Of a stretch of 64,000 nucleotides of DNA, positions 3,779 through 33,501 are shown in pieces. The notes beneath the pieces were generated by a model. That model saw only the letters and a list, made by a program, of their open reading frames with translations, was not told where the DNA came from and ran no database searches. A program made the translations under genes and the position numbers. The stretch is from Arenibacter sp. F20364 (lineage in GTDB: Bacteria > Bacteroidota > Bacteroidia > Flavobacteriales > Flavobacteriaceae). Where the stretch lies: positions 186,001-250,000 of the forward strand of contig NZ_JALKBD010000003.1 of NCBI RefSeq assembly GCF_023015905.1, read 5' to 3'. Within the stretch, counting starts at the first letter, position 1. Each line of letters opens with the position of its first letter.

Positions 3779-4303
3779 ATGGAAGAAACCAAACCAAAAA
3801 CAGGAAAATACGCCTTGACTTATGGACTTATCCTTGGAGCCATAAGTGTAGTATTTATTTTGATGTTATATTCGTTGGATATGCATTATCAAGGAGGTCC
3901 CATGGTAATGGGTGTTAGTCTCTTGATTACCATAGCAATGATCATTATCGGAATGATGCAATTTAAAAAAGACAACAATGGTTTCATGACCTTTGGGGAA
4001 GGTCTAAAAATTGGTGTAGGTATTGGCCTGATCGCTGGTATCATTGGCATCATCTTCAATCAGATCCTGGCGGGCGTTATAGACCCTGAAATGATGAACA
4101 AGGCCATGGAGTACCAAAAAGGCATGCTTATGGAGACAACAAAAATGACTCCAGATCAAATTGATGCCCAAATGGAAATGGGCAAAAAATTCACAACACC
4201 CTCCTGGCAAATTATTTTTGGGCTTATTTATAGTATTGTGGCGAGCCTTTTATTGTCACTTATTCCAGCTTTAATTTTAAAAAAGAAAGAAACTATTCAG
4301 TAA
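3779..4303 (+). CDS. DUF4199 family membrane protein
   Basis: A 174-residue integral membrane protein with four hydrophobic segments: about residues 10-32, 38-60, 75-98 and 143-166. Between the third and fourth lies a Met-rich hydrophilic loop (EMMNKAMEYQKGMLMETTKM). Flavobacterial DUF4199 proteins share this topology and the FMTFGEGLKIGVGIGLIAG segment around residues 67-88. No function is established. The gene sits 35 bases before a glycosyltransferase gene and heads a four-gene forward run, which suggests co-transcription with cell-envelope genes. Confidence 0.85.
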   Translation: MEETKPKTGKYALTYGLILGAISVVFILMLYSLDMHYQGGPMVMGVSLLITIAMIIIGMMQFKKDNNGFMTFGEGLKIGVGIGLIAGIIGIIFNQILAGVIDPEMMNKAMEYQKGMLMETTKMTPDQIDAQMEMGKKFTTPSWQIIFGLIYSIVASLLLSLIPALILKKKETIQ

Positions 4304-31017: not shown

Positions 31018-31785
31018 TTAATTATTTACTTTCTTTAATTGATTTTTAAGCTCATCCATGGATTCCTGCAACTGTCTCAGTAATCCCTTTTCGGAAGTGG
31101 CATCCACACCAAAGGTTATTTTGCTACTAACTTGCCAAAGCTCCTGTAAGTCCTCTGTGTTAACGCTATACGGAGGATAGTTTTCATTTAATGATATTAA
31201 GGAAATTACGGCTGGATTGGGAGATTTTTCAATTTTTTTCACCAATACGGCGTCCTGCAGCACTACAACATAGATCTTATTGGGACTTATATCCTTTAGA
31301 CCTTCTACGGCCCTGGCCAATACCCACTCCCCTGGCTTTAAATTGGGCAACATGCTATCCCCTTCAATTTGGAAACCTCTATAAGTTGCATTTCGGAATT
31401 CAGGCAAGGGAATATCAAAAGCAGGCAACTGCTTGTACCAACTCGTGTCCTGAATATTCTGAGGATAACCGGCTGCGGCTTTAGCATTTACCAAAACCAT
31501 ATTCTCGTTTTCGGATGAATTTACTGTAACCACCTTTGGAATAACACTGATATTTGTAACAGCTAAATGTTTTTGGGAGCTTTCCCCAAATAACCAAAGC
31601 GGATTAATCTTGAATTGCTTGAGCAGTTCCGCCACTACTTTTCCTGATAATTTTGTACGGCCCCTTTCTATATCCGCAGTGGTATTTGAAATACCAAGTA
31701 AGTTGGCAAAGTCAGATTGGGTATACCCCAATTCCCTGCGTAGATCAGTAAAACGCTTTGTCACTATTTCCATATCCTCGTTCAT
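31018..31785 (-). CDS. LexA-like XRE/S24 self-cleaving repressor
   Basis: A 255-residue transcription factor from the ATG at 31785. The longer frame to 31860 is rejected because a promoter -7 element overlaps that start. The N-terminal helix-turn-helix (about 9-62) reads YTQSDFANLLGISNTTADIERGRTKLS. The C-terminal S24 peptidase domain has Ser144 in IEGDSMLPNL and the Lys general base in AVLVKKIEK (183/184). AKAAAGYPQ offers an Ala105-Gly106 bond like the LexA cleavage site. This is therefore predicted to self-cleave on RecA-type signalling, though only sequence supports that. It is divergent from the operon at 31958 across an operator array. A C-terminal coiled tail (LLRQLQESMDELKNQL) may aid dimerisation. 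Confidence 0.88.
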   Translation of the reverse strand: MNEDMEIVTKRFTDLRRELGYTQSDFANLLGISNTTADIERGRTKLSGKVVAELLKQFKINPLWLFGESSQKHLAVTNISVIPKVVTVNSSENENMVLVNAKAAAGYPQNIQDTSWYKQLPAFDIPLPEFRNATYRGFQIEGDSMLPNLKPGEWVLARAVEGLKDISPNKIYVVVLQDAVLVKKIEKSPNPAVISLISLNENYPPYSVNTEDLQELWQVSSKITFGVDATSEKGLLRQLQESMDELKNQLKKVNN

Positions 31786-31857
31786 ATTGCGGGTTTTAAA
31801 TTCATATAACCAACATGGATATACCCTATTCATATAAAAGGTTTCATCCAATAGCTT

Positions 31858-31887
31858 CAAATATACGGATTTTGGAATATATCCAAA
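31858..31887 (-). promoter_or_regulatory. Promoter of the S24 repressor gene
   Basis: On the reverse strand, TTTG, 18 bases, TATATTTG. The -7 box covers the longest-frame start codon at 31860, so the true start lies inside (31785 chosen). Operator site 1 occupies the -33 box and the spacer toward the -7 element, which predicts autorepression. Confidence 0.65.
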
Positions 31888-31948
31888 ATATTTATTGGAC
31901 TATTTCCATAATTAGGAAATAATCCATATATTTGGAATAATTACAAAA
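31870..31948. promoter_or_regulatory. Array of four operator-like palindromes
   Basis: Site 1 at 31870-31888 is TTTTGGA-ATATA-TCCAAAA, a perfect palindrome. Sites 2 (TTGGA-CTATT-TCCAT, 31895-31909), 3 (TAGGA-AATAA-TCCAT, 31913-31927) and 4 (TTGGA-ATAAT-TACAA, 31932-31946) share the five-base spacer, with weakening arms. Centres are 23, 18 and 19 bases apart. Site 1 covers the repressor promoter and sites 2-4 cover the operon promoter. This is a phage-like multi-operator arrangement for the S24 repressor. Confidence 0.7.
31903..31934 (+). promoter_or_regulatory. Promoter of the small-protein/TIGR03915 operon
   Basis: TTTC, 20 bases, TATATTTG. The predicted start near 31940 lies 18 bases before the ATG at 31958. 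Palindrome 2 overlaps the -33 box, palindrome 3 fills the spacer and palindrome 4 overlaps the -7 box. Confidence 0.6.
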
Positions 31949-31957
31949 ACATATAGA

Positions 31958-32140
31958 ATGACTTTGGACGATTTACATCAAACATTAAGCAGTCTGGCCT
32001 ACTCCGGGATGGAGGATAACCACTTCACATCCGTTAGATCTAAGAGAGAAAACAGTTTAACCAAAAGTCATTCAGTAAAAAGGGAAAGAAGACGTTTAAA
32101 AAAAAGGGATATAAGTGTACAACTAAGTTTATTTGATTAA
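31958..32140 (+). CDS. Small basic protein with C-terminal clamp-binding-like motif
   Basis: A 60-residue protein of no family I recognise. Residues 1-20 are acidic and amphipathic (MTLDDLHQTLSSLAYSGMED). Residues 28-51 are strongly basic (KRERRRLKKRD). The last six residues are QLSLFD (55-60). QL(S/D)LF is the consensus by which bacterial polymerases and repair proteins bind the beta sliding clamp. The gene is first in an operon two bases ahead of the TIGR03915 gene, under the operator array of an S24 repressor. The ORF is real in context: operator-proximal promoter, tight coupling and a sensible C-terminus. A role as a clamp-binding peptide or adaptor is inference. Confidence 0.6.
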   Translation: MTLDDLHQTLSSLAYSGMEDNHFTSVRSKRENSLTKSHSVKRERRRLKKRDISVQLSLFD

Positions 32141-32142
32141 TT

Positions 32143-32856
32143 ATGGAAAATCCTAAAATTTTAATTTACGACGGTAGCTTCAATGGTTTTCTAAGCACCG
32201 TTTTCAGAGTTTTTGAGGAGAAGATCCAAGTGGCCGATATTCAAAGGAATAGGGAGATTCAGAAGGGACTTTTTTCTGAAGCGATAACTGTTTTTACCCA
32301 AATGGATAAAGCCAGACGCGTCTGGAACAGCATACAGAACAAGAATAATGCTGCCATTAAGTCCATTTACTTTGCTTTTCTAAGTGAAACCAAGGGTATT
32401 GAACTGATGCTTTACCAGTACATCCGTTCTATGTATGCCAACCCCAGTGAAGATCCCATAGATGGAATTTCGGAAATTATTTTGAAAATTCAGCAACACT
32501 CCAGAATGGTAGCAAGGGAAAAACATAGAATTGAAGCAATTGCCACTTTTGAAATTTCTAAGGACCAGATCTACTTTTCCAATGTTGCTCCCGGATTTGA
32601 TGTATTGCCATTGATCTCAAAACACTTTCGGTCAAAATTCCAGGGTCAAGAATTTATCATTTATGATGAAAAGAGAAAGTATGCCATTCATTACAACTGC
32701 TATACTGTTGAAATAATTTCTTTGGAATTATCCAATTATAACGGTAACGGAGGCCTTTCCCATACAAACTTAAAACAACTTATAAACAACAAGTTGCATT
32801 CACATCGTACTATAAAGACTCAAGTAGCCCATGTAGGTGAAAAGGAGGCAGTTTAA
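32143..32856 (+). CDS. TIGR03915-type putative DNA repair protein
   Basis: A 237-residue protein. ILIYDGSFNGFLSTVFRVFE at the start, the central FAFLSETKGIELMLYQYIRSM and WNSIQN-type helices, and the ending FIIYDEKRKYAIHYNCYTVEII match the family called TIGR03915. That family is linked in genomes to a radical-SAM protein (TIGR03916) and to UdgX-like uracil-binding proteins. It is full length. The biochemical role is not established; genome context supports DNA repair or modification. No radical-SAM partner gene lies in this window. It is coupled to the 60-residue gene upstream (two-base gap) and is presumably regulated by the S24 repressor. Confidence 0.8.
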   Translation: MENPKILIYDGSFNGFLSTVFRVFEEKIQVADIQRNREIQKGLFSEAITVFTQMDKARRVWNSIQNKNNAAIKSIYFAFLSETKGIELMLYQYIRSMYANPSEDPIDGISEIILKIQQHSRMVAREKHRIEAIATFEISKDQIYFSNVAPGFDVLPLISKHFRSKFQGQEFIIYDEKRKYAIHYNCYTVEIISLELSNYNGNGGLSHTNLKQLINNKLHSHRTIKTQVAHVGEKEAV

Positions 32857-32973: not shown

Positions 32974-33501
32974 TTACTTGGTTCTTTCACCTACAAAATT
33001 ATCGCTCTGATTTTTGAATAGTACGTTAAATGTGGTTAGGCTACCGTAAATACGGGTAATATATTGTTGTAGGTCAACCTTTTCCTGATCATCCAAATTA
33101 TTACTGCTGTTTATTTTCTGTTCCATTACCCTAATTCTGTCCCTAACCATAACAATTTTGTGAAAAAAGGTATCCAAGGGAATTTCTTTATCCGATAAGT
33201 TGGAATCGCCCGGTTTCAAAACTAGACTTCCCCCCTTCCACTTGTCCGCAATTGGAGTAATGGAGCTAGCATCGCTCCAACGTTTTAAAATAGAGATCAA
33301 CGATTGTTCCACTTCGGAAAAACTTATGGTATCCACTTCGTCCTCCACTGCCTCTATAATCTCAAAACTCGAATCCACATCTATAGTTTCCAGACCACTA
33401 TCCATGAAAGTAACCCAATAATGCTTAGACGTAACATTGGTAACCACTCCTTTTCCAAATTCGCTGTGGTTAAGCCGAGAACCAATTCCTAAAAGTTGCA
33501 T
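32974..33501 (-). CDS. Conserved flavobacterial protein with SH3-like start
   Basis: A 175-residue soluble protein of unknown function. Residues 1-45 (GIGSRLNHSEFGKGVVTNV then YWVTFMDSGLETIDV) resemble the small beta-barrel at the C-terminus of UvrD/PcrA helicases, which reads GxxVxHxxFGxGxV. Residues 60-175 are helical, with DTFFHKIVMVRDRIRVMEQKIN and IYGSLTTFNVLF. Homologues in Flavobacteriia keep this arrangement as far as I recall. It is divergent from uvrA across 109 bases. A role with nucleic acid or RNA polymerase is only a guess. Confidence 0.65.
   Translation of the reverse strand: MQLLGIGSRLNHSEFGKGVVTNVTSKHYWVTFMDSGLETIDVDSSFEIIEAVEDEVDTISFSEVEQSLISILKRWSDASSITPIADKWKGGSLVLKPGDSNLSDKEIPLDTFFHKIVMVRDRIRVMEQKINSSNNLDDQEKVDLQQYITRIYGSLTTFNVLFKNQSDNFVGERTK

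Follow-up and report, generated by a model that had tools for sequence, protein, structure and literature searches.

A small protein with a predicted clamp-binding end in the TIGR03916 position of a probable SOS operon of Arenibacter

Introduction

Non-canonical LexA proteins have been described in Bacteroidetes (PMC8565304). In the main text of that paper one group of them, found mainly in Flavobacteriaceae, is reported to bind the palindrome GGA-N5-TCC, its genes being induced by mitomycin C; the tested repressor of the group is WP_075324850.1 of Salegentibacter agarivorans. Here we analyse, by computation on sequence, a locus of Arenibacter sp. F20364 (positions 31018–32856 of a 64 kb stretch of DNA, hereafter the window, from a genome of 5.7 Mb) at which a repressor gene, probably of this group, stands divergent from an operon of two genes, the first for a protein of 60 residues and the second for a TIGR03915 protein. 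An earlier note on this DNA had taken canonical LexA to be generally missing from Bacteroidota; the published group makes out of date the view that these bacteria are without an SOS repressor. The repressor, then, is of a kind already known; what is new is the operon variant, in which a small open reading frame (ORF) sits in the slot of TIGR03916.

The closest described operon is the TIGR03916–TIGR03915 pair (COG4277 with DUF4130/UDG, where UDG stands for uracil-DNA glycosylase), a predicted SOS repair pair. TIGR03916 is a radical S-adenosylmethionine (radical-SAM) protein with a helix-hairpin-helix. As to its partner, a 2013 paper (PMC3765255) describes DUF4130 as a predicted enzyme related to mutagenesis, with links to SplB-like proteins and to uracil-DNA glycosylases. 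The window's operon shares with this pair its slot, divergent from the repressor, and a homologous TIGR03915, and its small protein has TIGR03916-like ends; it differs in that the genome is without TIGR03916 (0 matches in the whole genome) and in that its TIGR03915 lacks the C-terminal stretch KLHxQHVPKRYWKYLSEK carried by complete forms. A second comparison is provided by Proteobacteria, where TIGR03916 is followed by a DUF4130-UDG fusion annotated as UdgX family (4/4 scanned): that TIGR03916, too, ends QLxLF-like, whereas the window protein is without the fused UDG domain.

We use the term mini for a small ORF that resembles only the two ends of TIGR03916. In the open-licence PMC literature we found no paper that deals with the mini, with a TIGR03916 clamp motif or with a DHH fold of DUF4130, and the words 'clamp' and 'Arenibacter' each occur 0 times in the main text of PMC8565304.

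Results

The window's mini (31958–32140, plus strand; 60 residues) comprises a TIGR03916-like, helix-like N-terminal stretch, a basic linker and a C-terminal QLSLFD, the full ending being VQLSLFD. These parts were delimited by alignment, by profile tests and by the ratio of nonsynonymous to synonymous differences (pN/pS). Six positions – M1, L10, D20, Q55, L58 and F59 – are invariant in an alignment of 19 minis (17 from Arenibacter plus those of G049 and G043; G, L and g numbers are our handles for genomes, loci and genera). TIGR03916 shares M1, L10, L13, A14 and D20 in the register of the mini, without gaps, and likewise ends QLxLF. Bacterial clamp binders share this consensus (PMC4549789), and QLSLFD fits it, with Q55, L58 and F59 unchanged in all 19 sequences. 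The suggestion of the earlier note that the small protein may bind the sliding clamp is thus supported, as a prediction.

Profile comparisons point to a resemblance at the N-terminus as well. A profile of the 19 minis gave 36 TIGR03916 N-termini a median of 8.5 bits, a value reached by 0 of 564 control genes (other genes, left by a widened filter that removes TIGR03916 proteins; maximum 0.0) and by 0 of 20,000 shuffles (maximum 6.8); with the 17 Arenibacter minis alone, again no control and no shuffle attained the median. When the profile was turned round and offsets were permitted, no more than 12 of 816 control N-termini scored as well as, or better than, any of 16 among the 18 minis; the best control (23.7 bits) may itself be an unfiltered TIGR03916. 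As for the other end, 37 of 5,745 distinct small ORFs from all loci examined finish in Q[LIMFP]xLF, and these comprise 33 minis, the scar of locus L146 (see below) and three unrelated ORFs; among 875 longer ORFs not filtered as TIGR03916 only three do so, two of which look like TIGR03916 tails. The mini has no NCBIfam match, the TIGR03916 model included, and no cysteine in its 60 residues, hence no radical-SAM cysteine cluster. Pfam matches to EF_assoc_1 (0.0019) and DUF1828 (0.0052), below the cut-offs of those models, were rejected as chance.

The mini behaves as a coding sequence: pN was smaller than pS in 55/55 pairs among 11 equal-length sequences from the genus (the window's own copy excluded). 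Pooled pN/pS was 0.49 overall, 0.25 for the two ends and 0.71 for the basic middle; the ends are under purifying selection, the middle little so. By eye, 15 of 18 listed minis carry a G-x-x-D signature that is lacking from TIGR03916, which has AAKYD. Among 18 Arenibacter genomes the mini is present in 16 by sequence search and in G001 by reading of the locus, and is gone in G011. It also occurs in genera g19, g27, g33, g127, g128, g129, g131, g145, g177, g236, g255 and g185, its distribution outside Arenibacter being patchy.

The slot in which the mini lies is best understood from homologous loci. The 80 named loci are those that best match the window's TIGR03915, hence not a random sample, and some of the TIGR03916–TIGR03915 loci among them are interrupted by a contig end. 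Of the 80, 61 have TIGR03916 ahead of TIGR03915, 14 have a mini, four have neither and one (L146) has a scar only. The order in G018 is repressor, TIGR03916, TIGR03915, uvrA; in the window and in G043 it is repressor, an ORF of 60–62 residues, TIGR03915, an opposite-strand ORF of 175 residues, uvrA. Wherever the locus was read, the mini directly precedes TIGR03915 or the TIGR03916–TIGR03915 pair; the latter arrangement, a mini followed by TIGR03916 and then TIGR03915, is found in both genomes of g185 (G216 and G395). In 56/56 measurable named loci TIGR03916 starts at most 65 bases from the start of the last operator, which therefore leaves no room for a mini. The earlier note had noticed the divergent operon, the QLSLFD ending and the TIGR03915 match, all of which are present; what it overlooked, as read from sequence, is that the mini occupies the TIGR03916 slot and has TIGR03916-like ends, and that the adjoining TIGR03915 is decayed and without its usual partner.

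A family-wide sample of 397 Flavobacteriaceae genomes gives this last point its weight. TIGR03916 is present in 101 genomes and TIGR03915 in 138 (in G188 as a fragment only), the latter in two score classes relative to a model of 243 positions with a cut-off of 112.25 bits. High-scoring TIGR03915 (249–286 bits) occurs in 101 genomes, which are exactly those with TIGR03916. The low-scoring class (75–218 bits) comprises 37 genomes, 36 of them without TIGR03916 and one (G311) with a separate complete pair. Only one of the 37 low-class proteins, that of G043, retains an RYWK-like C-terminal motif (KHWK). The repressor ORF is present at 37/37 of these loci, with its position worked out in all but G238, and a mini lies between repressor and TIGR03915 in 19/37; the slot was read in all 37, although a very divergent mini could escape notice.

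Several further observations concern these operons. At L146, from a metagenome-assembled genome (MAG), only the codons of QQLSLFN, just upstream of position 4001, remain between operators and TIGR03915, apparently the scar of a TIGR03916 deletion. G001, G003 and G008, all Arenibacter, carry a complete TIGR03916–TIGR03915 pair elsewhere, with no GGA-N5-TCC just upstream; G004 holds a C-terminal TIGR03915 fragment with an internal stop (G004:C1:3818918-3819040), which suggests that this member of the genus lost its complete pair not long ago. In loci with a long gap between TIGR03916 and TIGR03915 the intervening ORF is not a mini, a possibility we considered and rejected. It is a different, second conserved basic ORF of about 45–75 residues, resembling LERxRxxILxLGYDFVxFKSKxKKSL and without a clamp motif, seen by eye in about two dozen named loci (for example L137, L145, L172–L174, L184 and L198–L203). 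The 175-residue ORF between TIGR03915 and uvrA (window 32974–33501, minus strand) has no Pfam match and recurs in G001, G011, G043 and G049.

The C-terminal motif recurs in the full-size enzyme. All 43 distinct TIGR03916 proteins examined from the loci end in the QLxLF type, and seven plasmid homologues chosen from 158 records end QLSLF (three), QLALF, QLSLL, QLSLI and, more weakly, QLLLDF. Clamp tethering may therefore be general in this radical-SAM family, to judge from these endings. The plasmids on which a QLSLF, QLALF, QLSLL or QLSLI ending was seen (L299–L303) belong to the Proteobacteria Thioclava, Azospirillum, Agrobacterium, Phaeobacter and Caballeronia. By sequence, the solved structure that TIGR03916 matches is RuvA (E 0.003–0.005). 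Its predicted structure was too poor to use (predicted local distance difference test, pLDDT, 51.7; predicted template-modelling score, pTM, 0.34; mean column identity of the alignment 87%), and a predicted N-terminal helix, residues 3–17, is of low confidence.

The second gene of the operon (32143–32856, plus strand) encodes a TIGR03915/DUF4130 protein of 237 residues in the decayed form, identified by Pfam (DUF4130, 1.5e-20; no UDG domain) and NCBIfam (152.8 bits, above the cut-off). The match covers model positions 1–194 of 243, and the C-terminal segment with the RYWK motif is absent. Relatives were sought in viral contigs, where none of 53 pattern matches was confirmed.

A DHH-like fold is predicted for this protein. 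An AlphaFold2 model from 46 sequences reached a pLDDT of 83.7, with residues 218–237 unreliable. Foldseek returned two matches at E<=0.001, both to chains from the same PAP phosphatase (E 3.2e-4) and weak as alignments (TM about 0.3, root-mean-square deviation (rmsd) 12); RecJ and other DHH-family proteins followed at weaker E-values, mixed with unrelated proteins from rank 9. VIA-align placed residues 3–216 on PAP phosphatase with Z 9.8 (rmsd 4.0, 189 residues aligned), on a scale where a best Z of 7–8 is common without a true relative, and gave RecJ and Cdc45 Z 8–9.6; its first 36 rows are, we take it, all or nearly all of the DHH superfamily. TIGR03915 differs from these proteins in its identity of only about 7–11% and in having no invariant histidine in the 46-sequence alignment; the Asp/His metal motif of DHH proteins was not found there. 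The classical DHH metal site therefore seems absent, as it is from Cdc45. No solved structure in the PDB matches TIGR03915 by sequence at E<=0.1.

Between the divergent genes lie three palindromes, GGA-ATATA-TCC (operator 1, 31874–31884), GGA-CTATT-TCC (operator 2, 31897–31907) and GGA-AATAA-TCC (operator 3, 31915–31925), with starts 23 and 18 bp apart. The palindromes of the earlier note are thus real. In the window two of the three are the sole sites of the form GGA-[AT]5-TCC; plain GGA-N5-TCC occurs 15 times. The earlier note made its case depend on conservation of the locus in relatives, and in this the operators bear it out: the triple is present in 74/80 named loci (64 at 23/18 bp, 10 at 22/18 bp) and in 0/20,000 base-shuffled stretches of 300 bases, a conservation that is above chance. 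The operon, too, is kept; the 60-residue ORF is conserved only patchily beyond the genus. Of the six loci outside the 74, three (L153, L168, L175) have no repressor in the available piece, and L156, L162 and L178 did not show the triple in the region searched; a separate listing of sites gives L156 two and L178 four, at 23/18/23 bp, so that L178 has the triple. In genus loci of readable orientation the GGA and TCC letters are constant and the spacer letters vary. A fourth, imperfect dyad, TTTGGAATAATTACAAA (31931–31947), is kept in many relatives, and some loci (for example L165, L192, L196 and L204) have a perfect fourth GGA-N5-TCC.

Promoters of Bacteroidetes have the -7 consensus TAnnTTTG, and on this basis a putative -7 element, TATATTTG, can be placed on either side of the operators: at 31927–31934 (plus strand) for the mini–TIGR03915 operon and at 31858–31865 (minus strand) for the repressor gene, where CAAATATA is kept in the readable genus footprints. 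The ORF list has the repressor ORF at 31018–31860 (minus strand). Its TTG at 31860 is an unlikely start because it falls inside the minus-strand TATATTTG element, and the ATG at 31785, giving 255 residues (31018–31785), is the more likely one.

With this start the residues named in the earlier note, Ala105-Gly106, Ser144 and Lys183, are all exact. The protein matches HTH_3 (helix-turn-helix; 1.7e-7) and Peptidase_S24 (6.3e-12) in Pfam, and a search of solved structures by sequence with its N-terminal part gave an entry named DBP48 (E 7.6e-4). Ala-Gly is present in 77/77 named repressor orthologues and GDSM in 75/77. With the group of the Salegentibacter agarivorans LexA (PMC8565304) the window's repressor has in common the HTH_3 and S24 domains, the Ala-Gly bond, the Ser-Lys dyad, GGA-N5-TCC in its own promoter, a host from Flavobacteriaceae, and the same motif ahead of dinB, SRAP and SplB-like genes; no difference was found in a comparison by domains, residues and motif. 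Because domains, residues and motif match, we regard it as probably a non-canonical LexA of this GGA-N5-TCC group.

The motif also occurs elsewhere in the genome. Counts of WGGAWWWWWTCCA on the two strands are 37 and 43, versus 17 and 17 for a reversed control pattern, and most of these sites, all of which were inspected, fall within ORFs. Intergenic pairs with starts 19 bp apart stand ahead of a DinB gene (L230), of a gene for a PA0069-type, SplB-like radical-SAM protein (L237) and of an SRAP gene (L238). The genes so marked make up a small set of classical SOS type, and most likely, therefore, this repressor is the master regulator of the genome's SOS response and not a local two-gene switch. 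The SOS-like module of the earlier note therefore survives in its self-cleaving architecture, as a prediction, and not in its confinement to two genes.

Two of the intergenic pairs have neighbours of their own interest. Divergent from the SRAP gene, and directly after the two operators, lies an ORF of 85 residues (L238:1932-2226, C95 of this genome), which has no Pfam or NCBIfam match at E<=0.01 and is a candidate further SOS gene. A fourth pair, again 19 bp apart (L221:1544-1574, C125), has no clear target; it is overlapped by a 104-residue ORF without Pfam match, and an ORF that by eye is Ssb-like starts about 1.2 kb off. Single intergenic sites at L083, L220 and L224 have no evident SOS gene adjoining.

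Discussion

A central issue is what a protein with the two ends of an enzyme and none of its body might do. We think it reasonably probable that the operon is under LexA-like repression and that the mini serves as an SOS-induced clamp adaptor for TIGR03915. Repressor dimers would occupy the three GGA-N5-TCC operators between the divergent genes, and DNA damage, by way of RecA filaments, would provoke self-cleavage at Ala105-Gly106, releasing the mini–TIGR03915 operon, the repressor gene itself and the distant SOS genes. The mini would then dock in the sliding clamp by its C-terminal QLSLFD; the basic middle of the protein may make contact with DNA, and the N-terminal helix would hold a partner, most likely the neighbouring TIGR03915 protein. 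In relatives the full-size TIGR03916, which has both ends, could anchor both itself and TIGR03915 on the clamp; Arenibacter and other genera would have lost the enzyme and kept the tether, TIGR03915 being left without the C-terminal motif associated with the enzyme. Seen directly are the architecture, the operators and their conservation, the motif ahead of further SOS genes, the partition within the sampled family and the selection on both ends taken together; cleavage, clamp binding, the contact between helix and TIGR03915, and the action of TIGR03915 on DNA are what we infer here. That the mini ties TIGR03915 to the clamp is proposed because the mini and TIGR03916 have their ends in common, and because of the order of the genes and the partition of the two score classes.

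A number of findings weigh against this account. The clamp motif is short and easily arises. No mini was seen in 18/37 loci with decayed TIGR03915, which therefore does not everywhere need one, and because G216 and G395 carry a mini together with a full TIGR03916 the mini is not simply a replacement. The N-terminal resemblance is less distinct for some minis: the median of a profile made from those of G049 and G043 alone was reached by 1/564 controls and 9/20,000 shuffles, and the minis of G160 and G358 are not distinguished, 88 and 44 of 816 controls matching as well. On the side of the repressor, the catalytic-lysine pattern V-x-V-K-[KR] is found in 69/77 orthologues, not all, and L162 is without an operator in the region searched. 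Finally, L146, L161, L170 and L177, which lie outside the 397 genomes and come from records of unstated completeness, some of them MAGs, have no TIGR03916 in slot, genome or record, and yet their TIGR03915 proteins, in which the motif is almost complete, score 261, 245, 239 and 270 bits. Outside the sample the partition is consequently not strict. These four look like recent losses, in which the enzyme would have gone first and the TIGR03915 motif would decay afterwards; they leave our confidence unchanged, because the mechanism needs no strict partition.

The most serious alternative holds that the mini is a decoy: induced by damage, it would fill the clamp pocket and slow or unload the replicative polymerase, TIGR03915 acting separately. 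Apart from basic residues and the clamp motif the mini does indeed possess little; SOS operators stand in front of it, and TIGR03915 is kept in loci without it. A pure decoy, however, has no need of a TIGR03916-like N-terminus or of the strong selection seen on the two ends of the mini taken together; and in the loci read the mini keeps its place directly before TIGR03915 or the TIGR03916–TIGR03915 pair. We hold this explanation to be unlikely.

A good deal less probable is that the mini is a functionless, decaying remnant left by internal deletion of TIGR03916. The same slot, the similar ends and the repeated loss of TIGR03916 speak for such an origin, as do the QQLSLFN codons that are all L146 retains. 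Decay, however, is at odds with pN below pS in every pair compared, with an ORF that is open in 17/18 genus genomes and in 12 other genera, with G216 and G395, where an intact TIGR03916 accompanies the mini, and with a G-x-x-D signature foreign to TIGR03916. The last two findings also disfavour an origin by simple deletion within the enzyme gene and speak for an older gene of separate descent. In trees, the backbone of which is weakly supported, the minis fall into several clades (G302 groups with G450, L146 and L150, support 98; G208 and G389 fall in another clade). To judge from sequence, the mini is either a distinct gene of long standing, retained next to TIGR03916 in one genus while elsewhere one or the other was lost, or the outcome of repeated reduction of TIGR03916.

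That the repressor is a phage-derived switch of this operon alone, as its CI-like HTH and five phage records matching it at 24–41% identity might suggest, is very improbable given the motif pairs 19 bp apart ahead of dinB, SRAP and SplB-like genes, the fact that every one of the 18 genus genomes has just one such repressor at E<=1e-20, and the conservation of repressor and operators across the family.

Returning to the clamp adaptor, a broader proposition can be put forward more tentatively, as possible rather than probable. In many Flavobacteriaceae, TIGR03915, as a DHH-fold protein that resembles Cdc45 in being catalytically silent, might be coupled to the sliding clamp by SOS-controlled adaptors of 54–75 residues, which are built like the termini of a radical-SAM repair enzyme and have nothing of its body. 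The ancestral operon would have been repressor, divergent from mini, TIGR03916 and TIGR03915, as in G216 and G395, with lineages thereafter keeping either the enzyme or the tether.

The significance of the locus lies in what it says of two families, both uncharacterised, that are found in company with SOS regulons and now gain a testable role: TIGR03916 as a predicted clamp-tethered radical-SAM DNA-repair enzyme and TIGR03915 as its predicted DHH-fold partner. The mini shows which parts selection keeps once the chemistry of the enzyme is lost, and it offers short peptides with which clamp tethering in the SOS response of Bacteroidota may be probed.

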